DNA from: Saprospiraceae bacterium
GTDB taxonomy: Bacteria; Bacteroidota; Bacteroidia; Chitinophagales; Saprospiraceae
Direction: 5' to 3'
NCBI GenBank assembly: GCA_026993525.1
Contig: JALWSS010000154.1
Span: 1-48,694 of the forward strand
Length of the DNA: 48,694 nucleotides
The notes beneath the pieces were generated by a model. That model was not told where the DNA came from. It made no database searches and saw only the letters and a list, made by a program, of their open reading frames with translations. The position numbers and the translations under genes are program-made. Positions 3,986 through 22,190 of the stretch are shown piece by piece. Within the stretch, counting starts at the first letter, position 1. Each line of letters starts with the position of its first letter.

Positions 3986-4845
3986 GAACCCGGGTTTTGT
4001 GACGAAGAAAATCAAAAATTGGGGCAAAGTGTGTACAGCATCAGGAATATGTCAGCAGGCTGGCGATGAAAGGGACAAATGATCAAGTACCAGCCCTTTT
4101 GATCCAATGAATCCAAACTGCAACCACCTGCTCCCTGACGAAGCCAGCCTGGCTGTCAGACAGGGCAGCCCCGAAGGGGGAGTAGAGAGTAGGGAGTAGG
4201 GAGTAGAGAGTAGAGAGTAGGGTTTGGAGGTACTAGCCCTTTCATCCCTCCCCCGATGGCAATCGGGGCATCCCTCATTCCTCACCCCTCATTCCTGAGT
4301 AGGGAGTAGAGAGTAGGGAGTAGAGAGTAGAGAGTAGGGAGTAGGGAGTTGGGAGTTGGGAGTAGAGAGTAGAGAGTAGAGAGTAGAGAGTAGGGTTTGG
4401 ATGTACTAGCCCTTTCATCCCTCATCCCTCATTCCTCATTCCTCATCCCTGAGTAGGGTGTAGGGTGTAGGGTTTGGAGGTACTAGCCCTTTCATCCCTC
4501 ATCCCTCACCCCTCACCCCTCATTCCTCATTCCTGAGTAGGGAGTAGAGAGTAGAGAGTAGGGTTTGGAGGTACTAGCCCTTTCATCCCTCCCCCGATGG
4601 CTATCGGGGCATCCCTCATTCCTCATCCCTCATTCCTCATTCCTCATCCCTCATTCCTCATCCTGCCGGAGGCAGTCCCGAACTTGTTTCGGGATCATCC
4701 CTCATCCCTACCCCGTGCCGATGCCGATCCCGTCCCGAAATCCTTCGGGATCGGGATTCGGCATCGGCACGGGGCATCCCTCCTCCCTGATTCTCCCCTC
4801 TGGCTTAATTGTTGAACTTTGGCGGTGAACAACCGTTGGCAGACT
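3986..4845. repeat. 860-bp divergent spacer made of minisatellites and palindromes
   Basis: No gene was found between the divergent transporter and TolC-like genes. The spacer alternates GAGTAGG/GAGTAGA heptamers with CCTCATT/CCTCATC heptamers. It contains four copies of a module reading GGTTTGGAGGTACTAGCCC (starting near 4218, 4395, 4470 and 4564), which is the inverted form of the module repeated at 23.4-24.2 kb and 39.6 kb. It also has CCCCGATGGC-type hairpins near 4250 and 4593 and a long inverted repeat at 4711-4774 with CCCCGTGCCGATGCC ends. No clear TAnnTTTG motif serves the TolC-like gene. Confidence 0.75.
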
Positions 4846-5586
4846 ATGCAGACCAGACTTTACGAGGCTTTTACCTGTTTTTTATTGTTTGTATTCAGCA
4901 TGACCGTGCAGGCGCAGGTTGATTACGACCGCATCGTGCCGCCGCCGGGGAGCAGGCCGGCCACCTTTGAAGATTACCTGGTGCAACTGGCCTGGACGAA
5001 CAATCCGGAAACCACCATCATGGATTTGCGGAAAGGAAAAGAGCAGAAAGAAGTGGAGCTCAAGCGCCAGTCCTGGAAAGACGATGTTCAGTTTGGATTC
5101 AACATCAACGAGGTGAGCCTGGCCAATGTCCTGAACCCCAGTGCTGACAACCTGATCATCTATCCCCTGTACCAGTTCTCCACCTCTGTGAGCCTCGGCA
5201 CCTTTACGACGAAAAAGAAAGAGCGGGAAATAGAAGAACAGGATGTAAAAATCGCCGATGAAGAGGCCAAACTCCACAAGCTGCGCATCCGGGCCGAGAC
5301 CCTCAGCCGTTACCAGAAACTCCTGCTGGCCATCGAAACTTTGAAACTCCGCACCAAAGCCGAGGAAGATGCCCTGAATACCTACAATTTTGTGAAGCGG
5401 TCTTTTGAGAAAATGGAGGTCACCCTCGATGACATGCTCCGTGCTTCCGCCAATTACACGGATGCCACGGAAAAACGCCTGGCCGCTGCCACCGACGTCG
5501 AACTGGCCCGCCTGGCCCTCGAGGAAATGATCGGCGTGAAGTGGGAATCCCTCGCTCGTGTGCGTGAACGGTATGAAAATCAGTGA
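4846..5586 (+). CDS. Half-length TolC-family outer-membrane efflux protein
   Basis: This 246-residue protein begins with a clear signal peptide ending VQAQ, so it is exported. It then shows one outer-membrane-efflux-protein repeat: FEDYLVQLAWTNNPE, a YQFSTSVSLGTF beta segment, a long helical hairpin (KKKEREIEEQ onwards), then VTLDDMLRASANY and ARLALEEMIGV. TolC proteins normally carry two such repeats in 430-500 residues; here the second is absent and the following DNA is only repeats. It may be a natural short form or a truncated gene. The ATG at 4846 directly precedes the signal peptide; a TTG at 4819 would add nine residues. With the adaptor and ABC gene it could form a tripartite exporter, by inference. 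Confidence 0.75.
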   Translation: MQTRLYEAFTCFLLFVFSMTVQAQVDYDRIVPPPGSRPATFEDYLVQLAWTNNPETTIMDLRKGKEQKEVELKRQSWKDDVQFGFNINEVSLANVLNPSADNLIIYPLYQFSTSVSLGTFTTKKKEREIEEQDVKIADEEAKLHKLRIRAETLSRYQKLLLAIETLKLRTKAEEDALNTYNFVKRSFEKMEVTLDDMLRASANYTDATEKRLAAATDVELARLALEEMIGVKWESLARVRERYENQ

Positions 5587-5858
5587 GCTGTTTTCAGTTG
5601 GCGGTTGGTAGTTGGCGGTTGGTAGTTGGCGGTTGGCGGTTGGCGGTTGGCAGTTATCAGTTGGCAGTTGGCGGTTGGCGGTTGGCAGTTGGCGGTTGGC
5701 AGCTGGCAGTTGGCGGTTGACAGTTGGTAGTTGGCGGTTGGCAGTTCCTCAACCGATAACCGACAACCGACAACCGATAACCGATAACCGATAACCGACA
5801 ACCGATCCCGAGGCAAGCCCGGGAATAACCGACAACCCCCAACAACCTTCATAATCCC

Positions 5859-5976: not shown

Positions 5977-6108
5977 GTTCCCGGCACGATGTTCGACGGA
6001 AAAGGGCGTCCCCTCCGCTTTTAACTTAACTTTTCCGGACCAGGCCTTTACTTCCACACACTGTTTCAGCATCCACCCCCCGCATTGTGGAACACGAAGA
6101 AGACTACT

Positions 6109-9100
6109 ATGAGATACGGCACCATTGAACCCATATCCTTTCCTGCTGGTAGTTGTTTGCACGAGCTGCTGACAAAACAGGCGCAAGCGCAGCCTGAAAA
6201 AACCGCATTGATTTTCCGGAACGGAAGCATGTCCTTTTCCGATCTGGACCGCCGGTCCACGGAGCTTGCCACTGTGCTTCAGGAGGCAGGTGTGGGGTTG
6301 GAAGATTTCGTTGCCATTTACTGTGAGCGTTCTTTTGAGCTCATCGTCGCAATTTTCGGCATTCTGAAAGCCGGGGGCGCCTATGTTCCCATTGATGTGG
6401 ATTATCCCAATGACCGGATGGCGTTCATGGTGGAAGATGCCGGTGCGAGAGTGATTCTGACCCAGCGCCACCTGGCCGGCCAACTGCCCGACACCGGTGC
6501 GGGGGTCATCTGCCTGGACGAGCCTTTGGCGGTCGGTGGGCAGGCTTTTCAGAAGCCCGCCGTTGAGCCCCACAACCTTGCCTACATGATCTACACTTCG
6601 GGTTCCACCGGAAAGCCCAAAGGGGTAATGATCAGCCACGAAAACGTGTGCTACCAGTTGCAGGGGCAGCAGGCCATTGCGCCGTCGCCAATTGACAAAA
6701 TGCTGCTCACCGTCAGCATCAGCTTCGATGTTTCGGTGCTGACCATTTTCTGGTCTTTGCTGCAGGGAGCCACCCTGGTATTGCCCGAACAGGGCGAAGA
6801 AAAAGACATGGTCAGGCTGGCGGAGACCATCCGGCGCAATGCCGTGACCCACACCATGACCCTGCCATCGCCGTACACGCTGTTGCTGGATCAGGCACCG
6901 GCGGGCAGCCTGGATTCGCTCCGGCTGGTCAATGTCAGCGGGGAGGTTTGTCCGGTGTCGCTGGCGCAACGGCACGAGCAACTCCTGCCCAACACCCAGC
7001 TATACAACCTGTACGGCCCCACCGAGGCCACGGTGAACTGCACGTTTTTTACCTTTCCAAAAGGGTTCGATGCGGACAAAGCGCCCATCGGCATTCCCAT
7101 TCAGGGCTATGAGATATTCATTTTGGATGAAAACCTGGAACCCGTTGCCGGAGGTGAAGTGGGAGAAATCTACATCGGAGGCAGGGTGCCGGTGGTGGGC
7201 CGTGGATACTGGAACCGACCCGCACTGACCGCAGAACGCTTCATCGAAAGGCCTGCCCGGCTGGGCATTCCTGAGCACCCCCGGGCCCGCACCCTGTACA
7301 AAACCGGCGACCTGGCCCGCTGGATGCCCGATGGCAACATCGAATTTCTCGGGCGCTCAGATTTTCAGGTCAAATTCCGGGGCTTCCGGATAGAACTGGG
7401 GGAGATAGAAGCTGCACTCCAACAACACCCTTCCGTGAAAGAAACGGTGGTGTTGCTGCGGGATGAGCACGACCTGGCCAGGCAAAGGCTGGTGGCCTGG
7501 CTGACCTTGCACGATGGCAAAAGGGCGACGGTAACCGAATTGCGGGAGCACCTGGCCACCCGACTGCCGGAGTACATGCTGCCTTCGCAATTCGTCTTTC
7601 TGGATAAAATGCCGCTGACCACCAATGGCAAGTTTGACCGCAAGGCCTTGCCCGACCCACCGGCACAGCGCCCCCATTTGTCGGTGCTGTACGAAGCTCC
7701 CGGAACCGAACTTGAAAACTACTTGGCCGCCAGGTGGGAATCCCTCCTCGGCATTGCCCCCGTGGGGCGAAACGACAAATTCTTTGAGCTGGGTGGCAAC
7801 TCCATCCTGGCAGCCCGTTTCCTCGGCGAGCTGATGGACGCGACCGGAGCCAGCATCTTCATCACCTCCATTTTCGACCACCCGACGGTGGCGGAGTATG
7901 CGGCCTTTCTGGAAAAGAACTACCCTGAGGCGGTGGCCGGGCTGGTCAACCTCTCACCTTCGGAAAATGCGGGTGGCGGGGCTGCCGGCGAGCGCCTGAC
8001 CGATGAGGAGATTGCTGAATTTCCAAAACTGGTTCCGGTTCACCTCTCAGAAGCTTCTTTCCCTTCGGTAAATGGCGACCCGGATGTGGCACCACTTTTC
8101 ATCCTGGCCCCGCCCCGCTCCGGCACCACGCTGCTCAGGGTGATGCTGGCCGGCCACCCGGCGCTGTTTGCCTGCAACGAACTTCAGTTGCTGCACTTCG
8201 AAACATTGCGCCAGCGAAGCGAGGCCTATGCCGGCAAGTTCAAATTGTGGACGGAAGGGCTGATCCGGGCCGTGATGGAGCTCAAAAATTGCGACGCCGA
8301 AGCGGCTCAATACCTCCTGCACCAACTCGAAGAAAAAGGTACCACCACTGCTAAAATGTTCCGGCTCTTGCAGGAATGGTCGGGAGGCAGAACGGTGGCC
8401 GACAAATCGCCCAGCTATGCGCTGGACCCGCTCGCCCTGCAAAAGGCCCTGCACGATTTTCCGAAGGCGAAATTCATCCAATTGGTGCGCCACCCCTGGT
8501 CCATGGTGCGCTCTTTTGAAAAATACCACATGGACCAGGTGCTGTACCTGCATTCGCACAGCCTGCCGCCCTGGAAGCTCGGAGAGTTGGTCTGGCTGCA
8601 CAGCCAGCGAAACGTCAGCAGGTTTTTGGAGACGGTGCCGGAAGGGCAGAAATCAGTCATGCTATACGAAGCGCTGGTGAGCCAACCCGAAAAGACGCTC
8701 CGCCGCATGTGCGATGAAATCGGCCTCGAATTTCATCCGGGCCTGCTCAACCCCTACCAGGACCTCGACAAAAAAATGACCGACGGCATCTACGCCGACA
8801 GCCGCTCCATGGGCGACACGCATTTTGACCGGCAGAAGGGCATCAATGCCCAAAAGGCGGAAGAGTGGAAAGGGGTTTTGAATGACAATTTCCTCGCTTC
8901 GCAAACCTGGGAGATGGCGGAGCAACTCGGCTACGAAGCCATTGACCGAAAAGAAGAAGCAACCGCTCCGGAATCACTTCCTGAAGCAACCGGGCCCCGG
9001 AAAGATTCCCGCATCGCCATCATCGGAATGGCTTGCCGGGTGGCCGGTGCCCGCAATGTGGAGGAGTTTTGGAAACTGCTAAAAACCGGTACCGATCCGG

Positions 9101-12100
9101 GCAGGAAGATCACGCCCGATGACCTTGCTGCTGAAGGCCTTGCCGGGGTTTCGGAACGACAGGTGCTGCGCACTTATGCACTGGAAGGCCCTTACGATTT
9201 CGACCACAACTTTTTCGGTCTGCATCCCCGGGAAGCCGCCATGATGGACCCCCAGCACCGCCATTTTCTGGAAACGGCCTGGGAAGCCCTGGAAACGGCC
9301 GGCTATGACCCGCTGCGCTACGACGGGCGCATCGGCCTGTTCGGTGGCGTGGCCCGTAACACCTATTTTCTTCGCAATGTGATGGGGCATCCGGAACTGC
9401 TGGAGGCCGCCGGCGGCTACCAGGAGATGCTGGCTTCCGACAGCTCGTTTTCCGTGACCCGTGTGGCTTACAAACTCAACCTGAAAGGCCCGGCTGTCAA
9501 CGTTCAAACGGCTTGCTCCACCGGCGGGGTGGCCCTGCACCTGGCCTGCCAGAGCCTTCACAACGGCGATGCCGACATGGTCCTGGTGGGCGGTGGCCGC
9601 ATCCAGAGCCCCGTGCTGGCCGGCTACGAATACACCGACGGCGGCCCCCTCTCCGACGATGGCTACCTCCGTGCCTTTGACGCCGGTGCCAGCGGCATGG
9701 TGCAAGGCCACGGCATGGCCATGTTGCTGCTCAAACCCCTGGTAAAAGCCCTGGCCGATGGCGACCACATCTGGGCCGTGATTGACGCCACGGCCATCAA
9801 CAACGACGGTGCCGACAAGACCGGCATTACCGCTCCCAGCAGCGCCGGGCAGGCTGCCGTAATCGAATCTGCGCTCCGCAAGGCTGGCCTCAGCGCCGGG
9901 GATATCAGCTATGTGGAGGCCCACGGCACGGGCACCTACATTGGCGATCCGATTGAAATTCAGGGCCTTGGCACCGCTTTCCGGCGTTTTACGGAACGAA
10001 AAAACTACTGTGCTGTCGGCTCGGTAAAAACCAATGTGGGCCACCTGGATGCCGGCGCCTGCCTCATCGGTGTCATCAAAACGGCGCTGGCGCTGTACCA
10101 CGGAGAACTGCCCGCCACGCTGCATTTCCGGGAGCCCAACCCGCAAATAGACTTTGCCAATTCTCCTTTCTTCGTCAACGACCGGCTGCGGCCCTGGCCC
10201 CGGAGCAACGGGCCCCGGCGGGCAGGGGTGAGTTCGTTCGGTCTGGGCGGCACCAATGCCCACATCATCCTGGAAGAGCCGCCGGCCGTGGAGCCATTGC
10301 GCAGCGAGGGAGGGCCGGAATTGCTGTTGCTCTCAGCCCGTACGGAAAACGGATTGGCAAGGCTGCAAGCCGATTTCGCAAACTACCTGGAACGACATCC
10401 CGATGCCCCCATCGAGGCGGCAGCCGCTACCACCGCCACCGGGCGGAGCCATTTCAGCCACCGGGCGGCTTTTGTGGCCGGTGCCGGCAGGCCTTTTTCT
10501 TCGCCTGCGGCAATGGGGCAGGTGGAGCCGGGTGCCAAAGCCGCAGCATTGTTGTTCCCCGGCGGCGGGGCCCAATATGTCAACATGGGCCGGGGTTTGT
10601 ACGAGTCGGAGCCCGTTTTCCGAAGGGAAATGGACCGCTGTTTCGATTTGCTGAAAGAACAGCACGACCTGGACCTCCGTGGCCTTGTGTATCCCGAAGA
10701 CAAGCATGACACTTCACCAATCGCAGCACCGGCAGCGGGCCTGGCAGCACTGTTCGCCGTTGAATACGCCACTGCCCGCCTCTGGCAACATTGGGGCATC
10801 GAACCCGCAGCGCTCCTCGGCCACAGCATGGGCGAATATACCGCCGCCTGTATAGCCGGGGTGATGGACCTCGATACTGCGATCGGATTGGTGGCGGTGC
10901 GGGGTAAGCTGTTTGAAAGCCTGCCCGCTGACGGCGCCATGCTCAGCGTGCCGCTTCCGGAGGATGAACTGAAAGCCTGGCTGGAACCGGAGCACTGCAT
11001 CAGCGTCATCAACCGGCACGACAGCCTGGTGGTGAGCAGCACCTCCGAAGGCATAGACCGCCTGCACAACAAGCTCGAAGCCGCCGGCATCGAATGCACC
11101 CGCCTGCACATCGCCGTAGCGGCGCATTCACCGCAGGTAGAACCCATTCTGGAGGCCTTCGGAAAATACCTTGCTTCGGCAAAACTGGCGGCTCCCGCCA
11201 TCCCCGTTGTTTCCAATGTGACGGGCACCTGGCTGACGGACGAGCAGGCCCGTTCGGTGGACTATTGGCTCAGTCACCTGAGAAATACGGTTCGCTTCCA
11301 CGATTGCCTGAGTACCCTGTTCGGATTTTCCGAAGAAAAACCGCTGACCTTTCTGGAATGCGGGCCGGGACAGACGCTGGCAGGTTTTGCCCGGCTGCAC
11401 CCACTCCGGAAGGGCCAACCCGTTTGGGCCAGCATCCGGCACCCCCGGGAGCAGATCGAAGACCGGGATTTCATTCTGACAACCCTGGCCCGGCTTTGGG
11501 TGCAGGGCTTTGAAATAAAATGGCAGCAGTTCCATGCTCACAAAAACTGGCGCCGCCTCCCGTTGCCAACTTATCCCTTCGAAAAACACCGGCATTTTAT
11601 ACCTCCTGCAACCGGGGCCGCCCGGCAGGCTCCTGATTTGCCGGAACTCAACACCGTACCATCCACCCCTGTCATTTCAAAACCAGCCATGAGTCAACCC
11701 ACCAAAACCCGCAAGGATGTCCTCATTGACGAGGTGCGCAACATCCTGTACGAGCTGAGCGGCATGGATCCCGAAAGCATGGACCCCGCCGCTGCATTTC
11801 TGGAGCTCGGCTTCGACAGCCTGTTTCTCAGCCAGGCCGTCATTCGCTTCAACAAGCGTTTCAGCAGCCGGCTCTCCTTCCGGGCCCTCTTCGAAGAAGT
11901 GCCAACCATCGAGGCCCTGGCCGCCCACCTGGATGAGACCCTGCCGGCCGGCGTTTTTGAACCGGAGGTCACTCCCCCGGCCCCCCTCGGGGAGGAAGTT
12001 CCCCAGACGCAGCAGCCCGGGCAACCTCTCTCAACTTCTCTCAACCCCTCTCAACAATCTCAACAGCTTCAACAGCTTCAACAGCTTCAACAGCTTCAAT

Positions 12101-15100
12101 CCCGGAACAAGCCCGGGATCGTGAGCAGCGCTCACGACCAACAATCTCAACAGTTTCAACAGTTTCAACAATCTCACCAATCTCAACAGTCTCAACAACC
12201 CACACCAGGCTCCCCCCTGGCTGCACTCATCCAGCAGCAGTTGATTTTGATGCAGCAGCAACTGGATTTATTGAAGGGTACCACTCAACCCCTTCAACAA
12301 TCTCAACAGTTTCAACAATCTCAACAATCTCAACAATCTCAACAGTCTCAACAATCTCAACAATTTCAACAATCTCAACAGTTTCAACAATCTCAACAAT
12401 CTCAACAATCTCAACAGTCTCAACAACCCCAACAACCTCAACAACCTCAAAAACCTCAAGAGATCGTTCGCTCCACCAAAGGGGTGACGGCCAAGATGAG
12501 CAATTACGCCAGGATCAAGGCGGCGGAAGAATTGCCGGAGCGGCAGCGGAAGGGCCTGGAGGATTTCATCCGGCGTTACAACGAGATGACGGCCACTTCC
12601 AAAAAGATGCAGCAGCGCCACCGGCAGTTTTACGCCGATCCGCGCAGTGTGACGGGTTTCAGCAAGTTGTGGAAGGAGGTGGTGTACCAGGTGGCATTGA
12701 AAAAGGCCAAAGGCTCCCGCATCTGGGATGTGGATGGCAACGAATACATTGACTATGTGATGAGCTACGGCGTGGGCCTCTTCGGCCACATGCCCGATTT
12801 TGTGGAAGAGGCCGTGGCGGCTGCCCTGAAGCGGGGCAACTCACTGGATGTGTTGCCGCCGGAAGCCACCGAAGTGGCTCGCATCATTTGCGAGATGAGC
12901 GGCATGGACCGGGTCACCCTGGCCAACACCGGCACCGAGGCGGTGCTGGGTGCCGTGCGGGCAGCCAGAACCGCCAGCGGCCGGGAACGCATCGCCGTGT
13001 TTGACACCGACTACCACGGGATGATTGACCAGTTCCTGGTGCGAGGGGTACACCTGAAAGACAAATCGGTGTCGCTGCCATCCTCGCCGGGCATACCTTC
13101 TTTCCTTGTGGAAAACAACCTGGTGCTGGATTACGACGATCCGTATGCGCTGGAGAAGCTGAAAGCCAACCTCCACGAGCTGGCAGCGGTGGTCATAGAG
13201 CCTGTGCAGGCGCAGAACCCGCACTGGCAACACGACGAGCTCATCCGGCAGGTGAGGGAGCTCACCCGGGAAGCCGGCGTGGCGCTCATTTTTGACGAGA
13301 TCATCAACGGTTTCCGCCTGGCCAAAGGAGGAGCCCAGGAGTGGTTCGGCGTGGAAGCCGATATCGTGGCCTATGGCAAAAGCATCAGTGGTGGCCTGCC
13401 CTTGTCAGCCGTTGCCGGCAAGGCCAGATACATGGAGGCTTTTGACGGTGGCATGTGGCAGTACGGTGATGACAGCAGCCCGGAGGGCATCGTCACCTAC
13501 TTTGCCAGCACCTTCATCAAAAACCCCATCAGTGTGGCAGCGGCCTATGCGGCCATGCAGGAATTGGAACGGCGCAGTCCTGAATTGCAGGAAGAACTGA
13601 ACGAGCGGGCCGGGCGCTTTGCGGAGCGGATCAGAGAGATATTCCTGAAAACGAAGGCGCCCTTCATGATCCAGACCTGCTCCTCGTTTTTCATGCTCAA
13701 AACCGCCGACAACAACCCGCTCAGCCGGCTTTTCAACTACTTCCTGCGCATGCGGGGTGTCAACGTCCGTGAGCGGCCCTGCTTCATCTCCACCGCCCAC
13801 ACCGATGAAGATTTTGAGCGCACCTACAAGGCCTTTGAGGAGGCCATCCAGGATATGTTCGATGCCGGTTTGATAGAACCCTGGGAGGGCGAGGACCTCA
13901 ATGTCATCATCCCGCCCAAAGTGCGCCGCCATTCGGATTACCCCCTGACACCGGGGCAGGAGGAGATTTTCGTGACCGGTCAACTGGGCCGGGAGGCTTC
14001 CCTGACTTACAACGTGGGCACCGAAATCCGGCTGGAGGGAGACCTGAACCGGGAAGCCCTGGAAACCGCCCTCCGCCAACTGATCAGCCGCCATGAGGCC
14101 CTGCGGACGACCTTCCTCAAAGACGGCAGTCGCCAAAAGCCACTTCCGGTTTTTGACCCCGAATTGCCATTCACGGATCTGTCCGCATTTGCCGAAGGAG
14201 AAAAAGAACAACAACTGAAAGCCCTTCACAAGGCTGAAACCGACACGCCTTTTGACCTTGAAAACGGGCCCCCGGTCAGGTTCCGCCTGGTGAAATGGAG
14301 CGGGCAGGACCACCGCCTGCTGATCACCGTGCACCACATCGCCGTGGATGGCTGGTCATTGGGGCTGCTCACACGTGACGCGGGCCGGCTGTACGCAAGG
14401 GCCTGCGGCTCAGCGGTTTCTTTGCCTTCGGTAAAACAACTGGGAACCTATGCACTGGAGCAAAGAGAATTTTTGCAAAGCGAGGATTTCCACAAAAACC
14501 TCGAATACTGGAAACAACACCTGACCCCGCTGCCACCACCCCTGCAACTGCCCACCGACCGGAAACGGCCTTCGCTGAAAACCTGGCGCTGCGACGTGGC
14601 CACCCTGCACATCGAAGCGGATCGTTTCAGACAGATCAGCAAAGTGGCAGCCCGGCAGGGAACCACCTTTTACTTCTACGTTTTTGCCGCCTTCGGCGCT
14701 TTTCTTCACAAACTTTCGGGCCAGGAGGATTTCGTGCTGGGAATGATCGCTGCGGGCCACAACCTGCCCGGCAACGAGCATCTTACCGGCCACGCCGCCA
14801 ACCTGCTGCCCATCCGATTGCGACCCGATGGCAACGAAGCCTTTGGCAACTTCCTCAAACGAACCCGCAGCACCCTGCTCGACGCCTTCGAGCACCAGAA
14901 CTTCACCCTGGGAGCCCTGTCGGGCGAAATGGAACTGCCGCGGGACCCGTCCAGGCCCTCGCTGGTGTCCGTGCTGTTCAACCTGGACAGCCCGCTGGAC
15001 CAGCTCGAATTTGGTGCGCTGAAAGCCGGCACCCGGCCCATTCCCCGCCGTTACGAGACTTTTGACATCTTCGTCAACATCAGTCCGCTGGCCGGTGGAG

Positions 15101-18100
15101 CCGGGCTGAATGTGGAGTGGAATTTCAACGCAGACCTCTGGGACAAAAGCACCGTGGAAAGCTGGCTGCAATCATTCGGCACTTTGCTGGAAGGCTGCAT
15201 GCAAGACCCCGGCACACCCGTCGGAAAATTGCCGCTCATGGACCCGCCTTCGCTGCGCAACTGGCTGCAGCGGGGTTCCGGCCCGGCCATGGATTTCCCG
15301 AAGGAAACACTGCACGCCCTGGTTTCAGAGCAGGCCCGGAAGACCCCGGACCGGGTGGCTGTGGCATGCGAAGGCCGGAGCCTCACCTACCGGCAACTGG
15401 AGGATACTTCCAACCAACTGGCCCGGCACTTTTCTGACAAAGGCCTGCTGCCCGGCACCTTTGCCGCTGTGCTGGCGGACCGCAACGAACTGCTGCCAGC
15501 CGTGCTGCTGGCGGTGCTGAAATGCGGCGCTGCCTACCTGCCACTGGACCCGGCCAACCCCGCCGAAAGACTGCGCTTTTTGCTGGATGACAGCGGAGCC
15601 CGCTTGCTGATCAGCGAGAGCCGGTTCAAAGGAACACTGCCCCGGGAGCCGGAGATCAGTTCCAGCTTCATTGACGAAGAAAAGAATGAATGGCAGGGCC
15701 TGCCCACCCAGGCGCCGGCCATTTCTGCCAAACCCGACGATTTGGCCTACATGATCTACACCTCCGGCTCCACCGGCCGGCCGAAAGGGGTGCCCATCCG
15801 GCACCTGCAGGCGGTGCACCTCATCACGGCCATGCGGAAGGTGCTGGATTTCAGCGAAAAGGAGACCGTGTTTGCGGTCATCTCGGTCACTTTTGATCCC
15901 TCTGTGCAGGACATTTTCATGACCCTCAGCAACGGGGCCAGGCTGGTCATTGCACCCACCGAAGTGGTGAAAAACGGTTACCTGTTGGCGCAGCAACTGG
16001 AGGCCAGCGGGGCCACATTCCTGCAAGCCACCCCCGTCACCTGGCAGATGCTGGTGAGCAGCGGCTGGCAGGGCCTGCCCGGGCTGAAGATGGTGTCCGG
16101 CGGCGAGGGGCTGAGCCGCGAACTGGCTGCCGAACTGCTCAAACGGGGCGCCCGGCTCTGGAATGCCTACGGCCCCACCGAAACGACCATCTACACCCTT
16201 GCGAAAAAAATAACCGGACAAGCCCTCGATGAACCCCACCTGTCGGGGTACGTGCCCATTGGAAAACCATTGCCCGACACGCAGGTGTTCATCCTGGACA
16301 AACACCTGCAACCCGTACCGGACGGCATGCCGGGAGAGCTGTACATCCAGGGCCTGTGCGTGGCCGCAGGCTACCACAGGCGCCCGGAAAAAACCGCCGT
16401 GGCCTTCATCAACCACCCTGATTTTGGTGGAGACAAGCTCTACAAAACCGGTGACCTGGTGGTGCGCCATCCCGGCGGCGATGTGGAGTACATCAACCGC
16501 CTCGACAACCAGGTGAAATTGCGGGGCTACCGCATCGAGCTGGGTGAAGTGGAGGCGGTCCTTCGGAAAATGGAGGGCCTGCAAGATGGCGCCGTGGCCC
16601 TCCGCACCCTGCCCAACGGCGAACAGGGCCTCGTTGCCTACGTGGTGAAAAAGCCCGGCGTGAACGGCATCCCCATCAGGGATTTTCTGAAGAAACAACT
16701 GCCGGAGTACATGGTGCCGGCCGTAATCATGGAGCTGGACGCACTGCCGCAAACCGCCACCGGCAAGCTGGACCGCCGGGCCCTTCCCAACCCCGATGCA
16801 AAATTGATGGAAAACAGGGCCGGCTACGAAGAACCGCTGGGCCCAATGGAAATCCTGCTGGCCCAGGTATGGAAAGAACTGTTGGGCCTGGAGCGGGTGG
16901 GCCGCCACGACAATTTCTTCGAACTGGGCGGTCACTCCCTGCTGGCGGTCAGGCTCCTGTCAGCCATCGAGGACAAAACCGGCGTGCGGCTGCCCCTGGT
17001 TTCACTGGCCGGAGAGGCCACCATTGCCCGCCTGGCCACTTTACTGGCAAGCCCAAAAAAGGATGACACACCATCGGAAACGGCCCGACCGGTGGTGGAT
17101 GAAAGCAGCGACATCAAAACGGTGCCGCTGACGGAGGGCCAGCGTGAGATACACGTTTCACACCACTTTTCACCGGAAGCGGCAGCTTCGTTCAACATCG
17201 GCTCCGCCATCCGGCTGAAAGGCGAGCTGAACCTGGAAGCATTGACTTGGGCCATCCGCACCCTGGCGCAGCGCCACGAAGCCCTGCGCACCAGCATTGA
17301 CGGAGGGGGGGAATTGCAGCACATCCATCCGGCAGCGGCTCTGGAACCGCAACTGCTGGACTTCAGCAGCCTGCCCGTTGCGCAGCGAGCCAAAAAACTG
17401 GAGGCCCTGAAAAAGGAGCAGCTCAAAACGCCTTTCGACCTGGGCAAAGCCCCGCTGGCCCGCTTTTTCATCGTCAGAATGGATGAGCTGGAGCACGTGG
17501 TGCTTTTCGTCATGCACCACATCGTGCTCGATGGCTGGTCGGTGGGTGTTCTCACTGCCGATCTGGGCCGCATGTACGCCGTCGAGTCGGGCTACAGCCG
17601 GGAGCAGTTGCCACCGGTGCAGCAGTTGTCAGATTTTGCCCTTCGGCAAAAGGATATGCTGAATTCTGAGGCCTTCGCCGCTGCGCGGCAATACTGGTTG
17701 CAGCAGTTCGAATCGGGTGTGGAGCCGCTCAACCTGCCGCTGGATCACCCTCGCTCGGCTGACACAGGCTGGGAGGCCCATTCGCAATCCGTCATTTTGC
17801 CGAAGGAAAAAATAGAAAGAGCCAGGGTGTTGGCGGCAGGGCAGGGCGCCACACTGTACACCTTCATGTACGCCGCCTTCCAGGCCTGGCTGAGCCGCTG
17901 GTGCCAGCAGGAGGAAACGGTCATCGGCGTGGCAGTCAGCGGAAAGTCCATCGTCGAATGGCAAAACCTGGTGGCCCACCGCACACACTTGCTGCCGGTG
18001 CGGGGAAAAACGGACCCGGCGAAGAATTTCAGCCAACACCTGGAAAATGCCAACCTGCAACTGCTCAGCGCTTTTGACCACCAGGAGTACACCCTCGGCA

Positions 18101-21081
18101 CGTTGGTCAAAGAAATCAGCCTCAAAAGGGAGGCCGGCCGCAACCCGCTCGTCTCGGTGGTCTTCAACATGGAAACCATGGACCGGAGCTGCGATTTCGG
18201 TCCGTTGGAGGTGCAATCGGACTTCATCGAAGGCGATTACAAACTCTACGACCTGCTGGTGCAGCTCAAACCTGCACCCGGCAGCGAAGGGGCTATTCAG
18301 TTGAAGTGGTTTTACAACAAAGACCTTTTTGAAAGCGCAACCATCCTGAAGAACCTGCAAGCTTTCAGCGCTTTCTTCGAAAAACTGACGGCTGAACCCG
18401 ACAGGCCTTTGCGGGAAATTGACATTTTGCCGAAGGAAGAAAAAGAGCGCCTGCTGGGCTTTGGAACGGGCGAAAGCATGCCCTGGCCGCAGCCCGGCCT
18501 GCCACAGACCCTGCACGAATGGCTTTCCTTCACTGCTTCGCAGCAACCGGAAGGCGTCGCCGTGGTTTGCGGAGCGGAACAACTGACCTTTGATGAACTC
18601 GACCGGAAATCCAACCGGATTGCCAATCACCTCCTCAGCCTGGGCTTCGAGGCCGGGGCCTATGCCGGCGTGTTGCTGGAGCAGTCGCTTGATATCCTGC
18701 CGGCCATCTTCGGCGTGCTCAAAGCCGGGGGCGCTTATGTGCCGCTGGATGCTTCCAACCCGGCAGAGCGCCTGCGAAACATCGCCTCCGATGCGGGCAT
18801 CAGCCACCTGCTCACGCATTCGTCGGTGATGCACAAGAGCTTTGGCATGAGCGCCGGTCTGCTGGTGCTGGATGCCCTTGCCTGGGAGGAATTGCCCGGC
18901 GAACGGCCGCAGCTCAGCGTTCGGCCTTCGGCCAATGCCTATGTGATCTACACCTCAGGTTCCACCGGCCGGCCGAAAGGGGTGGCCATCCGGCACGAAT
19001 CGGCCCTGCACACCCTGGCTGCCATCAACCGGCACCTGGGCGTCGGCCGGGATTCGGTGTTGTTTTCCGTATCCAGCATGGCCTTTGACATGAGCATACC
19101 CGACTACTTCCTGCCGGCTACCACCGGCGCCCGGCTGGTGATGGCCACCCCGGAAGAGCGCCGGGACGGTTTCCGGCTGGCGGCGGCCATTGACGGGCAC
19201 CGGCCCACCCACATGCAGGCCACGCCCGCCACCTGGCGCATCCTGTTGCTCAGCGGCTGGCAGGGAAGTGAACGCTTGTGGGCCATTGCCGGAGGCGAGG
19301 CCCTTCCAAAAGAACTCGCTGCGCAATTGCTGGGACACACCCGTGAGCTCTGGAACGGCTACGGCCCCACAGAGACCACCATCTACGCCACCTACCAACG
19401 GGTGGACAAAGACCTGCTCCGGCGCCAGCCCGGCGATGCGGTGCCCATCGGCAAGCCCATCGCCAATGTGCAGTTGCGGATCGTTGGCAAAGATGAAAAC
19501 ATGGTGCCTGTGGGAACACCCGGAGAGCTGCTCATCAGCGGGCCCGGCGTTTCAACCGGCTACCTGGGCAGACCGGAACTGACGGCAAAAGTCTTTGTCA
19601 AAGACGAAAACGGACAGACCTGGTACCGCACCGGCGACCTCGTCCGCTGGCTGCCGACGGGAGAAATTGACTTCCTCGGCCGCATGGATGGCCAGGTGAA
19701 GATCAGGGGCTTCCGCATCGAACTGGGCGAAATAGAAGCGGCCCTGCACCAGGTGCCGGGCGTGGAGCAGGCCGTGGCCGGTGTTGCCAATGACCCCGCC
19801 GGCGAGCTGCAGCCTGTCGCCTGGCTGGTGATGCAGCCGGATGCAGATTTTGACGAAAAAGCATTTCGCAATTTCCTTCGGAAAAAACTGCCGCCTTACA
19901 TGGTGCCCGCTGCCTTCGTGCAAATGGATGAGCTGCCGCTGAACAACTCGCTGAAAGTGGACCGCAAGAACCTGCCGGCTCCCGTTTGGGAACAAAAGCG
20001 CAAGGCCAACACCCGCACCAAAGCGGAAAGCGAAACTGAAAAAATGCTGGCCCGACTCTGGGAAGAGGTGCTGGGTGTCAAAAACCCCGGCATTGACGAA
20101 GACTTTTTTGAAATGGGCGGGCACTCGCTCAGCGCCGTCAACCTGCTGTCACGCATCCACAAGGCCACCGGCCGGCAACTGCCTCTGACGGTGTTGTTCC
20201 GGCACGCCACCATCCGGCAACTGGCCGCATTGCTGGACGAGGAGGATGCAGCCCCGGCGGCTTTTTCTTCCCTTGTTCCCATTCGCCCTGCGGGCAACAA
20301 GCCACCGCTCTTTCTGGTGCACGGCGGCGGACTGCACGTGCTCTTTTACCAAAACATGGTGCGGCACCTGGAACCCGACCAGCCCATCTATGCCCTGCAG
20401 GCCCGCGGCCTGGACGGCAGTGCCGAACCGCACGACAACATAGAGGATATGGCAGCACATTATATCGAAGAGATCAGGTCTGTGCAGCCACACGGGCCTT
20501 ACCTGCTGGCAGGTTATTCGCTGGGTGGCATCGTGGCCTGGGAGATGGCTCGCCAACTGTTGGCCGACGGTGAAGAGGTGCCCTTCCTGGCAGTTTTTGA
20601 CGCCGTAGCCAAACAGGAGGCCGGCGGCTCAGCCACTAACTGGAAAAAGAAACTGAAGAAAACGGGCTTCAACCTGGGACTGCTGCTGAAAAACCCCATC
20701 GCCGCCGTGGAGTACAAATCGCAGATGCTCAAAAACCGGGTGGACAACATCGCCGGAAAACTGCGCGTGGCCTACATGGACACCAAAACCAAAAAGGTGG
20801 AGGAAGGCTACCTTCCCTTCGGTAAAGAGGTGTACGAAAAAAGCATGGAGGCCTATCACAAATACCGGCTGGAACCCCTGGATGTCCAGTTGGATTTGTT
20901 CAAAGCCCGGGAACTGATGTTCTACGTAGCCGACCCCCGGCACTACGGCTGGACCAAATACGCCCGAAAAGGCGTACGTGTCCACAACATAGATGGCAAC
21001 CACCTCACCCTCTTCGACCGGGTACATGGCGAGGAAATTGCGAAAATTGTGCAACGAAGACTGGAGGAGGTGTCAGGGTGA
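6109..21081 (+). CDS. Single-protein hybrid NRPS-PKS with embedded sulfotransferase and aminotransferase
   Basis: A 4990-residue assembly line in one protein. Order with key residues: A1 (16-518), PCP1 (S565), sulfotransferase (660-945), KS (965-1390; C1136, H1272, H1312), AT (1475-1840; S1573 in GHSMGE), ACP (S1904), Gln-rich linker (1965-2121), class III aminotransferase (2140-2595; PLP Lys2424), C1 (HHIAVDG 2742-2748), A2 (TSGSTG 3218), PCP2 (S3610), C2 (HHIVLDG 3803-3809), A3 (TSGSTG 4282), PCP3 (S4673), TE (S4804 in GYSLGG, H4965). All main catalytic residues are present. There is no KR, methyltransferase or epimerase. Microcystin McyG/McyE use a comparable A-PCP-KS and ACP-aminotransferase-C logic. 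Expected chemistry: starter, one malonyl-type extension, beta-amination, two amino acids, release. The ATG at 6109 is preferred over a TTG at 6085. By-eye specificity codes: A1 D-V-L-T-N-S-L-V-N-K, A2 D-P-Q-A-M-S-A-I-Y-K, A3 D-M-P-A-A-A-G-I-Y-K; substrates not assigned. Confidence 0.96.
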   Translation: MRYGTIEPISFPAGSCLHELLTKQAQAQPEKTALIFRNGSMSFSDLDRRSTELATVLQEAGVGLEDFVAIYCERSFELIVAIFGILKAGGAYVPIDVDYPNDRMAFMVEDAGARVILTQRHLAGQLPDTGAGVICLDEPLAVGGQAFQKPAVEPHNLAYMIYTSGSTGKPKGVMISHENVCYQLQGQQAIAPSPIDKMLLTVSISFDVSVLTIFWSLLQGATLVLPEQGEEKDMVRLAETIRRNAVTHTMTLPSPYTLLLDQAPAGSLDSLRLVNVSGEVCPVSLAQRHEQLLPNTQLYNLYGPTEATVNCTFFTFPKGFDADKAPIGIPIQGYEIFILDENLEPVAGGEVGEIYIGGRVPVVGRGYWNRPALTAERFIERPARLGIPEHPRARTLYKTGDLARWMPDGNIEFLGRSDFQVKFRGFRIELGEIEAALQQHPSVKETVVLLRDEHDLARQRLVAWLTLHDGKRATVTELREHLATRLPEYMLPSQFVFLDKMPLTTNGKFDRKALPDPPAQRPHLSVLYEAPGTELENYLAARWESLLGIAPVGRNDKFFELGGNSILAARFLGELMDATGASIFITSIFDHPTVAEYAAFLEKNYPEAVAGLVNLSPSENAGGGAAGERLTDEEIAEFPKLVPVHLSEASFPSVNGDPDVAPLFILAPPRSGTTLLRVMLAGHPALFACNELQLLHFETLRQRSEAYAGKFKLWTEGLIRAVMELKNCDAEAAQYLLHQLEEKGTTTAKMFRLLQEWSGGRTVADKSPSYALDPLALQKALHDFPKAKFIQLVRHPWSMVRSFEKYHMDQVLYLHSHSLPPWKLGELVWLHSQRNVSRFLETVPEGQKSVMLYEALVSQPEKTLRRMCDEIGLEFHPGLLNPYQDLDKKMTDGIYADSRSMGDTHFDRQKGINAQKAEEWKGVLNDNFLASQTWEMAEQLGYEAIDRKEEATAPESLPEATGPRKDSRIAIIGMACRVAGARNVEEFWKLLKTGTDPGRKITPDDLAAEGLAGVSERQVLRTYALEGPYDFDHNFFGLHPREAAMMDPQHRHFLETAWEALETAGYDPLRYDGRIGLFGGVARNTYFLRNVMGHPELLEAAGGYQEMLASDSSFSVTRVAYKLNLKGPAVNVQTACSTGGVALHLACQSLHNGDADMVLVGGGRIQSPVLAGYEYTDGGPLSDDGYLRAFDAGASGMVQGHGMAMLLLKPLVKALADGDHIWAVIDATAINNDGADKTGITAPSSAGQAAVIESALRKAGLSAGDISYVEAHGTGTYIGDPIEIQGLGTAFRRFTERKNYCAVGSVKTNVGHLDAGACLIGVIKTALALYHGELPATLHFREPNPQIDFANSPFFVNDRLRPWPRSNGPRRAGVSSFGLGGTNAHIILEEPPAVEPLRSEGGPELLLLSARTENGLARLQADFANYLERHPDAPIEAAAATTATGRSHFSHRAAFVAGAGRPFSSPAAMGQVEPGAKAAALLFPGGGAQYVNMGRGLYESEPVFRREMDRCFDLLKEQHDLDLRGLVYPEDKHDTSPIAAPAAGLAALFAVEYATARLWQHWGIEPAALLGHSMGEYTAACIAGVMDLDTAIGLVAVRGKLFESLPADGAMLSVPLPEDELKAWLEPEHCISVINRHDSLVVSSTSEGIDRLHNKLEAAGIECTRLHIAVAAHSPQVEPILEAFGKYLASAKLAAPAIPVVSNVTGTWLTDEQARSVDYWLSHLRNTVRFHDCLSTLFGFSEEKPLTFLECGPGQTLAGFARLHPLRKGQPVWASIRHPREQIEDRDFILTTLARLWVQGFEIKWQQFHAHKNWRRLPLPTYPFEKHRHFIPPATGAARQAPDLPELNTVPSTPVISKPAMSQPTKTRKDVLIDEVRNILYELSGMDPESMDPAAAFLELGFDSLFLSQAVIRFNKRFSSRLSFRALFEEVPTIEALAAHLDETLPAGVFEPEVTPPAPLGEEVPQTQQPGQPLSTSLNPSQQSQQLQQLQQLQQLQSRNKPGIVSSAHDQQSQQFQQFQQSHQSQQSQQPTPGSPLAALIQQQLILMQQQLDLLKGTTQPLQQSQQFQQSQQSQQSQQSQQSQQFQQSQQFQQSQQSQQSQQSQQPQQPQQPQKPQEIVRSTKGVTAKMSNYARIKAAEELPERQRKGLEDFIRRYNEMTATSKKMQQRHRQFYADPRSVTGFSKLWKEVVYQVALKKAKGSRIWDVDGNEYIDYVMSYGVGLFGHMPDFVEEAVAAALKRGNSLDVLPPEATEVARIICEMSGMDRVTLANTGTEAVLGAVRAARTASGRERIAVFDTDYHGMIDQFLVRGVHLKDKSVSLPSSPGIPSFLVENNLVLDYDDPYALEKLKANLHELAAVVIEPVQAQNPHWQHDELIRQVRELTREAGVALIFDEIINGFRLAKGGAQEWFGVEADIVAYGKSISGGLPLSAVAGKARYMEAFDGGMWQYGDDSSPEGIVTYFASTFIKNPISVAAAYAAMQELERRSPELQEELNERAGRFAERIREIFLKTKAPFMIQTCSSFFMLKTADNNPLSRLFNYFLRMRGVNVRERPCFISTAHTDEDFERTYKAFEEAIQDMFDAGLIEPWEGEDLNVIIPPKVRRHSDYPLTPGQEEIFVTGQLGREASLTYNVGTEIRLEGDLNREALETALRQLISRHEALRTTFLKDGSRQKPLPVFDPELPFTDLSAFAEGEKEQQLKALHKAETDTPFDLENGPPVRFRLVKWSGQDHRLLITVHHIAVDGWSLGLLTRDAGRLYARACGSAVSLPSVKQLGTYALEQREFLQSEDFHKNLEYWKQHLTPLPPPLQLPTDRKRPSLKTWRCDVATLHIEADRFRQISKVAARQGTTFYFYVFAAFGAFLHKLSGQEDFVLGMIAAGHNLPGNEHLTGHAANLLPIRLRPDGNEAFGNFLKRTRSTLLDAFEHQNFTLGALSGEMELPRDPSRPSLVSVLFNLDSPLDQLEFGALKAGTRPIPRRYETFDIFVNISPLAGGAGLNVEWNFNADLWDKSTVESWLQSFGTLLEGCMQDPGTPVGKLPLMDPPSLRNWLQRGSGPAMDFPKETLHALVSEQARKTPDRVAVACEGRSLTYRQLEDTSNQLARHFSDKGLLPGTFAAVLADRNELLPAVLLAVLKCGAAYLPLDPANPAERLRFLLDDSGARLLISESRFKGTLPREPEISSSFIDEEKNEWQGLPTQAPAISAKPDDLAYMIYTSGSTGRPKGVPIRHLQAVHLITAMRKVLDFSEKETVFAVISVTFDPSVQDIFMTLSNGARLVIAPTEVVKNGYLLAQQLEASGATFLQATPVTWQMLVSSGWQGLPGLKMVSGGEGLSRELAAELLKRGARLWNAYGPTETTIYTLAKKITGQALDEPHLSGYVPIGKPLPDTQVFILDKHLQPVPDGMPGELYIQGLCVAAGYHRRPEKTAVAFINHPDFGGDKLYKTGDLVVRHPGGDVEYINRLDNQVKLRGYRIELGEVEAVLRKMEGLQDGAVALRTLPNGEQGLVAYVVKKPGVNGIPIRDFLKKQLPEYMVPAVIMELDALPQTATGKLDRRALPNPDAKLMENRAGYEEPLGPMEILLAQVWKELLGLERVGRHDNFFELGGHSLLAVRLLSAIEDKTGVRLPLVSLAGEATIARLATLLASPKKDDTPSETARPVVDESSDIKTVPLTEGQREIHVSHHFSPEAAASFNIGSAIRLKGELNLEALTWAIRTLAQRHEALRTSIDGGGELQHIHPAAALEPQLLDFSSLPVAQRAKKLEALKKEQLKTPFDLGKAPLARFFIVRMDELEHVVLFVMHHIVLDGWSVGVLTADLGRMYAVESGYSREQLPPVQQLSDFALRQKDMLNSEAFAAARQYWLQQFESGVEPLNLPLDHPRSADTGWEAHSQSVILPKEKIERARVLAAGQGATLYTFMYAAFQAWLSRWCQQEETVIGVAVSGKSIVEWQNLVAHRTHLLPVRGKTDPAKNFSQHLENANLQLLSAFDHQEYTLGTLVKEISLKREAGRNPLVSVVFNMETMDRSCDFGPLEVQSDFIEGDYKLYDLLVQLKPAPGSEGAIQLKWFYNKDLFESATILKNLQAFSAFFEKLTAEPDRPLREIDILPKEEKERLLGFGTGESMPWPQPGLPQTLHEWLSFTASQQPEGVAVVCGAEQLTFDELDRKSNRIANHLLSLGFEAGAYAGVLLEQSLDILPAIFGVLKAGGAYVPLDASNPAERLRNIASDAGISHLLTHSSVMHKSFGMSAGLLVLDALAWEELPGERPQLSVRPSANAYVIYTSGSTGRPKGVAIRHESALHTLAAINRHLGVGRDSVLFSVSSMAFDMSIPDYFLPATTGARLVMATPEERRDGFRLAAAIDGHRPTHMQATPATWRILLLSGWQGSERLWAIAGGEALPKELAAQLLGHTRELWNGYGPTETTIYATYQRVDKDLLRRQPGDAVPIGKPIANVQLRIVGKDENMVPVGTPGELLISGPGVSTGYLGRPELTAKVFVKDENGQTWYRTGDLVRWLPTGEIDFLGRMDGQVKIRGFRIELGEIEAALHQVPGVEQAVAGVANDPAGELQPVAWLVMQPDADFDEKAFRNFLRKKLPPYMVPAAFVQMDELPLNNSLKVDRKNLPAPVWEQKRKANTRTKAESETEKMLARLWEEVLGVKNPGIDEDFFEMGGHSLSAVNLLSRIHKATGRQLPLTVLFRHATIRQLAALLDEEDAAPAAFSSLVPIRPAGNKPPLFLVHGGGLHVLFYQNMVRHLEPDQPIYALQARGLDGSAEPHDNIEDMAAHYIEEIRSVQPHGPYLLAGYSLGGIVAWEMARQLLADGEEVPFLAVFDAVAKQEAGGSATNWKKKLKKTGFNLGLLLKNPIAAVEYKSQMLKNRVDNIAGKLRVAYMDTKTKKVEEGYLPFGKEVYEKSMEAYHKYRLEPLDVQLDLFKARELMFYVADPRHYGWTKYARKGVRVHNIDGNHLTLFDRVHGEEIAKIVQRRLEEVSG
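8086..8943 (+). other. Sulfotransferase domain within the megasynthase
   Basis: Residues 660-945 of the synthase form a PAPS-dependent sulfotransferase of the Sulfotransfer_3 type. The 5'-phosphosulfate loop is APPRSGTTLL (667-676) and the 3'-phosphate-binding segment is LVRHPWSMVRSF (792-803). It lies between PCP1 and the KS, so it faces the loaded starter or a later product. In curacin CurM a sulfotransferase acts on a beta-hydroxyl before a decarboxylating thioesterase; here there is no KR to make that hydroxyl, so the same chemistry is unlikely. Sulfation of a hydroxyl on the starter or the finished product is the simplest inference. Confidence 0.88.
12001..12471 (+). repeat. In-frame minisatellite encoding a Gln-rich linker
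   Basis: Between ACP and aminotransferase the gene is made of repeats that read as QQL, QQS, QQF and QQP. The cleanest run is 18 consecutive nonamers from 12295 to 12456 (CAACAATCT, CAACAGTTT and similar) with no indel. The spacer before the PPTase gene has the same CAACAAT core, but in mixed 8- and 9-bp units that would break frame. The linker (about 155 residues) should be a flexible tether. Confidence 0.9.
12097..12138. repeat. 42-bp double-hairpin element inside the megasynthase gene
   Basis: Two adjacent hairpins, TCCCGG...CCCGGGA and CGTGAGC-AGC-GCTCACG, are translated here as residues 1997-2010. Copies of exactly the same length lie in spacers at 21327-21368 and 46865-46906. In the codon phase used here, the 21327 copy contains a TAA stop while this copy does not. 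Confidence 0.85.
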
Positions 21082-21151
21082 GGGATGAGGGATGAGGGAT
21101 GAGGGGTGAGGGATGAGCTTGCCCGGCTGAACAGACGGGGGATGAGGGAAC

Positions 21152-21188: not shown

Positions 21189-21274
21189 AACTACCTCACC
21201 CTCTTCGACCGGGTACATGGGGAAGAGATTGCGAAAATTGTGCAACGAAGACTGGAGGAGGTGTCAGGGTGAGG
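21189..21274 (+). pseudogene. Duplicated 3' tail of the megasynthase thioesterase
   Basis: These 86 bp repeat 20998-21083, the last codons plus stop of the megasynthase gene, with four substitutions and no indel. Three changes are silent (in the Gly-Glu-Glu codons), and the fourth turns the codon of the putative catalytic His4965 into Tyr. No upstream thioesterase sequence precedes the copy, so it is a non-functional remnant of a duplication or of a lost second gene. Confidence 0.85.
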
Positions 21275-21539
21275 AACCGAAGAACCGAAGAACCGAAGAA
21301 TCGAGGGATGAGGGAACACAACAATTCAATCCCGGATCAAGTTCGGGATCGTGAGATAAGCTCACGACCATCAATAATTCAACTCCCGAAAGCTTTCGGG
21401 ATCAACAATCTCAACAATTCAACAATTCAACAATCTCAACAATTCAACAATTCAACAATCTCAACAATTCAACAATCTCAACAATTCAACAATTCAACAA
21501 TCTCAACAATTCAACAATTCAACAATTTCAACAACCCAA

Positions 21540-22190
21540 ATGCACCTGCAAGTACTGAATATCAACGACATCGGTCCGGCTCAGTGGGAGTGCTGGCAGG
21601 ACCTGCTCAGCGAGGCGGAAGTGCAACGGGCGGCCCGCTACCGCATGGCCGTTGACCGGAAGACTTTCGTGGCGGGCAGGGGCGTGGTGCGCCAATTGGC
21701 GGCTAAGTTGGCTGGCGTTGCCGAATCGGAGATCAGCATTTTGACGACAGAAAAAGGGAAACCCTTTGCAGAAGGCTTGCAGGATCGCTTCCAGTTCAGC
21801 ATTTCCCATTCTTCAGAATGCCTGGCACTGCTGTGGCACGAAGGGCCTGAGCCGGTCGGCGTTGACATTGAAAAGTTGCGGGAAGGGTTCGATTACAGTG
21901 GAGTGGTGCACCATTATTTTTCCGAAAATGAACGCCGGCAAATCAACTCCGCCACGGACTTCTTCAAATTCTGGACCCGCAAAGAGGCACTCCTGAAAGC
22001 CCTCGGCACCGGCCTGGTGGATGATTTGAAGGGGGTGGAGGTGGACCAACACGCAACTTCAGACCAGGGGCATGCCTTCCAGTTCATCACCGTGCATTCA
22101 GACAAAGCAGTTATCAGTTGTGCAATTCCCAATGGTTTCGAGCTGTCAGAATCACAATTCCTTTCAGAAAAGTTTATTCTTGCTGACTGA
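21540..22190 (+). CDS. Sfp-type 4'-phosphopantetheinyl transferase
   Basis: This 216-residue enzyme should move phosphopantetheine from CoA to the carrier serines of the megasynthase. Seen motifs: FVAGRGVVRQLAA (about residue 42), KGKPF, FSISHSSE, the Mg-binding VGVDIEKLRE (about 104) and FFKFWTRKEALLKALG (about 141), the signature of the Sfp/Gsp family. Length fits the family. It starts directly after a minisatellite at ATG 21540 with no Shine-Dalgarno site, on the same strand as the synthase 458 bp upstream. The glycosyltransferase gene follows after 21 bp, so those two are likely cotranscribed. It may also serve other carrier proteins in the cell. Confidence 0.95.
   Translation: MHLQVLNINDIGPAQWECWQDLLSEAEVQRAARYRMAVDRKTFVAGRGVVRQLAAKLAGVAESEISILTTEKGKPFAEGLQDRFQFSISHSSECLALLWHEGPEPVGVDIEKLREGFDYSGVVHHYFSENERRQINSATDFFKFWTRKEALLKALGTGLVDDLKGVEVDQHATSDQGHAFQFITVHSDKAVISCAIPNGFELSESQFLSEKFILAD

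Follow-up and report, generated by a model that had tools for sequence, protein, structure and literature searches.

The window, a stretch of 48,694 bp, is an entire contig of a Saprospiraceae genome of 5.16 Mb in 230 contigs. A single frame spanning 14.97 kb without an internal stop encodes a hybrid NRPS-PKS megasynthase of 4,990 residues; an alternative opening of the frame, TTG, lies at 6085. Its Pfam matches (three AMP-binding, two Condensation and four PP-binding domains, plus KS, AT, Aminotran_3, Sulfotransfer_3 and Thioesterase) follow the order A-PCP-ST-KS-AT-ACP-AMT-C-A-PCP-C-A-PCP-TE in one protein (Table 1), as proposed in the initial annotation. That the main catalytic residues are intact was likewise borne out by a motif scan, which finds them in all domain types: three A3 motifs (YTSGST) and four carrier protein serines, the C-H-H residues of KS, GHSMGE and VAVRGK in AT, GKSISGG in AMT, two HHxxxDG motifs in the C domains, PPRSGTT, RHP and NELQLL in ST, and GYSLGG with a C-terminal H in TE. 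Neither a methyltransferase family nor a KR is among the Pfam matches of the megasynthase. The Condensation family has two matches genome-wide, both within this gene.

Table 1. Features of the megasynthase locus (positions in the window)
Feature	Position	Strand	Basis
Hybrid NRPS-PKS megasynthase, 4,990 aa	6109..21081	+	translation, Pfam, motifs
A1, starter adenylation domain, code DVL(T/M)NSLVNK	6160..7668	+	Pfam, code alignment (position 278 ambiguous)
PCP1 (FFELGGNS)	7696..7923	+	Pfam, motif
ST, CurM/OLS-type sulfotransferase; PAPS motif PPRSGTT, invariant Glu of NELQLL	8071..8943	+	Pfam, motif, structure match
KS	9001..10308	+	Pfam, motif, tree
AT (GHSMGE)	10531..11478	+	Pfam, motif
ACP (FLELGFDS)	11761..12003	+	Pfam, motif
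Gln-rich linker, nonamer arrays and one in-frame 25-base element (12101-12125)	12004..12558	+	repeat analysis
AMT, MycA-type class III aminotransferase	12556..13788	+	Pfam, solved-structure match, motif
C1	13906..15258	+	Pfam, motif
A2, clade with Gly-type A domains; part of extra module	15310..16818	+	code, trees
PCP2	16846..17088	+	Pfam, motif
C2	17110..18468	+	Pfam, motif
A3, clade with Gly-type A domains	18526..20028	+	code, trees
PCP3	20026..20253	+	Pfam, motif
TE, type I thioesterase (GYSLGG)	20290..21078	+	Pfam, motif, structure-sequence matches
4'-phosphopantetheinyl transferase (PPTase), conserved neighbour	21540..22190	+	Pfam, locus comparison
Short OEP-family outer-membrane efflux protein	4819..5586	+	Pfam, locus comparison

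Repetitive DNA is found both within the gene and around it. The linker between ACP and AMT (184 aa, 39% Gln) contains arrays of a nonamer, unit TCAACAATC, and an in-frame copy, with 3 mismatches, of a 25-base element that has 40 copies in the genome and none in a reversed control. Alignment of the nonamer arrays to the intergenic arrays at 21402-21534 requires frequent gaps of one base. The linker of the relative L035 is different and Gln-rich (28%), and those of 17 same-family relatives contain at most 19% Gln. Tandem repeats with units from 7 bases up fill the intergenic regions 4178-5806, 21402-21534, 23361-24349 and 48403-48694; a 25-base intergenic unit has 72 overlapping places in the genome at up to 2 mismatches (reversed control 0), and the in-gene linker is not among them. 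In addition, 86 bases over the 3' end of the megasynthase gene (20998-21083) recur downstream, beyond the end of the open frame, at 21189-21274 with 95% identity.

The dedicated PPTase noted in the initial annotation does lie next to the megasynthase, and a PPTase adjoins the line in 21 of the 29 distinct loci with enough downstream sequence. To the left, the window encodes the short OEP protein, a C39-type ABC transporter and an HlyD protein. Of the 28 lines with sufficient upstream sequence, 10 have a relative of the OEP protein next to them, and this protein is a possible exporter of the product. The right side encodes a protein resembling tRNA-queuosine mannosyltransferases, together with sugar, envelope and other general genes; among ten proteins scanned there, one had no match. 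Twenty chosen neighbours at other loci are mostly glycosyltransferases, MBOAT proteins, GDSL lipases, transporters, hydrolases and pieces of additional synthetases. Neither the window's genes nor these 20 neighbours revealed a conserved tailoring enzyme near the lines; the former are transport or general genes and the neighbour types at other loci are common to few loci, and a tailoring role for the neighbours was rejected.

Comparison with other genomes revealed not a stand-alone oddity but a lineage-wide line, whose named relatives confirm the Bacteroidota origin. Of 150 same-family genomes searched with the ST domain, 23 match, the window's own included. In 19 of the 23, again including the window, the match falls in a frame of 932 to 5,036 residues, and in four in a small stand-alone protein. 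At E 1e-30, a draw of 395 Bacteroidota genomes yielded two matches: the source genome of the window and a second from the same family. Seventeen relatives were fetched, of which 14 carry a complete A-PCP-ST-KS-AT-ACP-AMT-C-A-PCP-TE in one frame and three are cut 5' by the contig end. Since relatives carry the same domain order, chance is excluded for the order in the window, which reflects homology. The relatives' architectures were called with models and BLAST queries built from the family's own domains, so that KR, DH, E or methyltransferase domains in them would stay invisible. Two Saprospiraceae lines (L046, L048) have tandem carrier domains ahead of AMT.

AMT is followed by one C-A-PCP in 16 of the 17 fetched relatives and by two in L018. 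Over the 35 distinct loci where this region is visible (L047 and L068 end too early to judge), the extra C-A-PCP occurs in three: the window, L035 and L072, the last being the same contig as L018. L035 is the closest relative, 89% identical to the window according to both the ST and the KS tree, and its order runs ...C-A-CP-C-A up to the contig end; the extra C-A-PCP of the window is therefore no artefact of one assembly. The core line of the lineage is without a second C-A-PCP, and that of the window is a rare extension.

Among named GTDB records (best 80 of 212), ST-KS-AT-CP-AMT lies in a single frame in 34, tandem CP or AT counted. All 34 are titled Saprospiraceae, Saprospirales or Bacteroidota/Bacteroidetes/Bacteroidia, and many are the same contigs as the 17 fetched relatives. 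A split line, with A-CP-ST and KS-AT-CP-AMT-C... on two genes, is present in seven of the best 80 of 212 records: Trueperaceae (L058), gammaproteobacterial (L070), Gemmatimonadetes (L076), Pedosphaera (L078 and L081), Nitriliruptorales (L090) and Anaerolineae (L113). These labels represent six phyla beyond that of the Saprospiraceae lines, and as the hosts are MAGs, contamination of the bins is possible. At the gammaproteobacterial locus (L070:3377-8035) the split line comes after a protein that combines formyltransferase, AMP-binding, luciferase-like monooxygenase and PP-binding domains, and a second sulfotransferase, encoded as a stand-alone protein, lies behind the line. In an ST tree of 86 rows, all AMT-bearing lines, fused and split (best 80 of 212), fall into one 47-row clade (SH-aLRT 98) that also includes fragments and L057. 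A KS tree of 32 rows, prepared like the quick A-domain tree after setting aside Saprospirales near-copies (21 loci), joins the AMT-bearing lines in one 25-row clade (SH-aLRT 99). Both trees indicate that the line has been inherited largely as one unit. L057 itself is an A-PCP-ST protein with starter code DSACIAEVWK; its ST groups within the Saprospirales clade, although its locus showed no KS.

The starter had been described as amino-acyl or aryl-acyl. A1 scores as an amino-acid adenylation domain (TIGR01733) and carries Asp235 and Lys517, a pair that the accessible portion of PMC12283262 gives as the rule for alpha-amino-acid A domains. An alpha-amino acid is thus the expected starter, and an aryl or fatty one was discarded. 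The code of A1, common to the window and its group I relatives, has six of ten letters (D, V, S, L, V, K) in common with the Ser code DVWHISLVDK (L097, L109). Most other Saprospiraceae lines (group II) have DGLTSAQVGK, a code that appears Tyr-like, or close variants of it. In a careful A-domain tree of 100 rows, with Saprospirales near-copies (26 loci) set aside, groups I and II cluster with A domains of the DSA(T/C)IAEVWK type (support 100/99), and the join of this assemblage with the Ser domains is weak (83/43). The quick tree (support 86) suggested that A1 had arisen by drift from Ser domains like those in split relatives; the careful tree did not bear this out, and Ser was then also dropped as a settled identity. 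As the code is Ser-like and the tree join weak, the Ser reading is plausible, and a Ser-like starter is our first choice for the window.

The codes of relatives bear on the substrate of ST. Five of the seven starter codes of split lines in the AMT clade are readable: Ser in L058, L070 and L113, Thr in L081, and one without class in L076. Outside the Saprospirales lines (best 80 of 212 loci), the A domain just before PCP-ST reads as Thr in 12, Ser in six and Hse in one of 34 cases, and the other A domains of the same loci as Thr in four and Ser in three of 51, the readings being near matches to codes named in the accessible portion of PMC12283262. Ser/Thr/Hse codes therefore stand before PCP-ST in 19/34 cases against 7/51 elsewhere (Fisher p 7.5e-5), or, counted by locus, 19/32 against 5/29 (p 0.0014); the p values are indicative, because the codes were already known when the classes were picked, and the rows are related to one another. 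At position 301, one of the six rows read as Ser (L055) carries Gly in place of Ser, and 15 of the 34 domains before PCP-ST (best 80 of 212 loci) are not Ser/Thr/Hse, one of them being Gly. Set aside before counting were A1 and terminal A domains from Saprospirales, any row with two or more gaps, and the five misparsed rows L083, L107, L058 minus strand, L091 and L098 first; position 278 is misread in some rows (Thr codes come out as DFWQ... and Gly-type rows show A there), so the other nine positions were used. The Ser/Thr/Hse codes of relatives suggest that ST probably sulfonates the side-chain hydroxyl of the starter on PCP1.

The best solved sequence matches of ST are the CurM ST (4gbm, E 1.7e-58) and the olefin synthase ST (4gox, E 3.8e-54), the next being at 3.5e-6. 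An AlphaFold2 model from a 14-row alignment (pLDDT 88.5) has the same two structures as its top matches (TMt 0.89 and 0.92), and compares with tyrosylprotein sulfotransferases at 0.51-0.64. Alignment and model took in 14 of the 19 ST-matching lines; 66 columns are invariant in the 14, as would be expected under selection for activity, including most of the PAPS motif and the Glu of NELQLL, a candidate base. An APS kinase for PAPS supply is encoded in the genome. In the ST tree the CurM and OLS domains form their own branch with one PKS ST, separate from the A-PCP-ST ones. Among the best 80 of 212 loci, ST is found after A-CP in many contexts, ahead of KS, C or TE; in L108 a related ST stands in the order KS-AT-CP-ST-TE. 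An Anaerolineae locus (L095) has ST after three successive modules (KS-AT-CP-ST, C-A-CP-ST, C-A-CP-ST). Modules of C-A-PCP-ST-TE or A-PCP-ST-TE occur in L077, L088, L089 and L097, with Thr, Hse-like, Gly-like and Ser codes; such modules are the NRPS counterpart of the ACP-ST-TE of CurM and might release peptides as enamides, though the TE of L097 has no CurM-named match.

The beta-amination logic of the initial annotation stands: the order is KS-AT-ACP-AMT-C in one protein, and AMT, with its PLP lysine, is of MycA type. Its best solved match is mycosubtilin MycA (E 1.7e-94, full length), followed by glutamate-1-semialdehyde aminomutases from 3.2e-55. The AT presumably selects malonyl. A2 and A3 fall in a 20-row clade of the careful A tree that holds all seven Gly-type A domains (support 100/99), but their code letters at positions 236 and 239 are changed. 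The A domain that follows AMT in split lines reads as Gly in L058, L070 and L076 and not as Gly in L078, L081 and L113, judged by the partly accessible code source. TE matches thioesterases of NRPS, fatty acid and polyketide synthases. None of the 32 solved matches of the window TE, nor of the 42 of the TE of the C-A-PCP-ST-TE relative L097, is named CurM, and a CurM-like release was rejected on this basis.

Together, these features make it somewhat probable that the gene encodes a self-contained line with a hydroxy-amino-acid starter, sulfonation, malonyl extension, beta-amination, addition of two residues and release by TE. The PPTase would prime the four carrier domains, and A1 would load on PCP1 an alpha-amino acid whose side chain bears a hydroxyl, a Ser-like one being the first choice. 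Judging from its position, its family and the codes of relatives, ST would then move a sulfonate from PAPS onto the hydroxyl of the residue held as PCP1 thioester. KS-AT would add one malonyl unit to give a gamma-amino-beta-keto thioester, whose ketone AMT would convert to an amine; with a Ser starter, the enzyme families predict a 3,4-diamino-5-(sulfooxy)acyl unit. The two C-A-PCP modules, with A domains that group with Gly-type ones, would add two residues before TE frees the product. We lean towards a sulfate that stays on the product, on grounds of parsimony: no extra enzyme is needed and TE has no CurM match.

The sulfate could instead serve as a leaving group as in curacin A. Its expulsion, by elimination or through attack of the newly formed amine, would leave a dehydro residue or a small nitrogen-containing ring, an outcome we regard as possible though on the improbable side. 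Chemically, a seryl- or threonyl-PCP is the same kind of beta-hydroxyacyl thioester as the CurM substrate, and ST belongs to the CurM group in sequence and fold, in which, according to the accessible parts of PMC3908369 and PMC6274090, sulfonation makes a leaving group; for this group sulfate loss has the better chemical precedent, and the order in L108 fits it. However, no TE follows ST here, neither TE has a CurM-named match, and no conserved tailoring enzyme was seen nearby. Sulfate is retained in the products of the Planktothrix oci lines. These lines, as described in the accessible text of PMC2533009, pair ST with a glycerate-loading domain, which also speaks against loss. In a bolder form of the argument, which we hold to be doubtful, A-PCP-ST would be a general NRPS module for beta-hydroxyl activation of PCP-bound Ser or Thr, the sulfate being expelled later, in this widely transferred line, by a beta- or gamma-amine to leave a strained nitrogen ring or dehydro unit. 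Were this true, sulfate expulsion would be a new route to nitrogen rings and dehydro units built into chain initiation. The occurrence of A-PCP-ST with C, TE or KS after it raises the question of whether peptide synthesis makes general use of sulfonation of PCP-bound Ser/Thr for editing or activation.

A Tyr-like starter, with ST making a sulfated phenol and hence a sulfated aminostatine-like unit, is unlikely. The group II code and the joining of A1 with AEVW-type domains, given our presumed Tyr reading of AEV-type codes, argue for it, as does the distant relationship of the ST group to tyrosylprotein sulfotransferases, but the window code DVL..SLVNK is nearer the Ser code. It is rather improbable that ST is idle or acts on a later intermediate, the product being an unsulfated beta-amino peptide: position by itself is no proof of substrate, and retention of ST in relatives proves little because ST was the search query, yet the invariant columns with most of the PAPS motif count against an inactive domain. 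Fragmentation of the genome and the repeats in the gene and just downstream could point to a frame or extra module produced by misassembly. This is very improbable, as there is no stop in 14.97 kb, and was set aside because L035 independently shows the same order and extra module up to its contig end.

No description of the line was found in the full-text literature searched, whose coverage is partial, in keeping with the earlier view of an undescribed compound; nor, with the same partial coverage, was there a match combining Saprospiraceae, NRPS, PKS and sulfotransferase, and the accessible text of two gene-cluster papers that name Saprospiraceae (PMC9765116, PMC10233909) makes no mention of it. 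The assembly line is real, conserved and apparently undescribed, and it combines known parts in an order that is new: a starter module for an amino acid, equipped with a CurM-type ST, precedes an aminating module of MycA type. Since one gene and a PPTase seem to constitute the whole pathway, direct expression and testing are feasible, and the product may be widespread, given the recurrence of the line among Saprospiraceae and, in split form, in MAGs labelled with other phyla.

With the microcystin McyG/McyE scheme, to which the initial annotation likened it in shortened form, the line shares the sequence of starter, C2 extension, amination and amino acids. McyE-type proteins have a C-methyltransferase between AT and AMT, whereas the window has no methyltransferase family among its Pfam matches and a different starter, and the code of its A domain after AMT presumably differs from the Glu code of McyE. 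The nearest solved relatives lie elsewhere, in MycA for AMT and in CurM and the olefin synthase for ST. MycA resembles the window in its full-length AMT match and in the placing of AMT between ACP and C, but its chain is primed with a fatty acid by an acyl ligase. The window has no such fatty-acyl ligase starter of the mycosubtilin/iturin kind; it begins with an amino-acid A-PCP and ST, and one protein runs through to TE. In mycosubtilin, the accessible part of PMC3870968 describes an AMT at the PKS/NRPS interface that inserts an amine from Gln into the polyketide intermediate. Similarity to CurM and the olefin synthase (curacin A, Synechococcus 7002) lies in ST sequence and fold. In curacin biosynthesis the CurM ST sulfonates a beta-hydroxyacyl-ACP, and ST-TE stands at the end of the line, with decarboxylation (accessible parts of PMC3908369 and PMC6274090 for the former, PMC6274090 for the latter). 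Against this ACP-ST-TE at the chain end, the window has PCP-ST at the start, followed by KS, and as no KR is among its Pfam matches a Ser or Thr starter would supply the hydroxyl. Compared by description, the Planktothrix oci cyanopeptolin synthetases share with the line an ST linked to N-terminal modification, but glycerate is loaded there and an amino acid here, and no AMT is described in the accessible text of PMC2533009.
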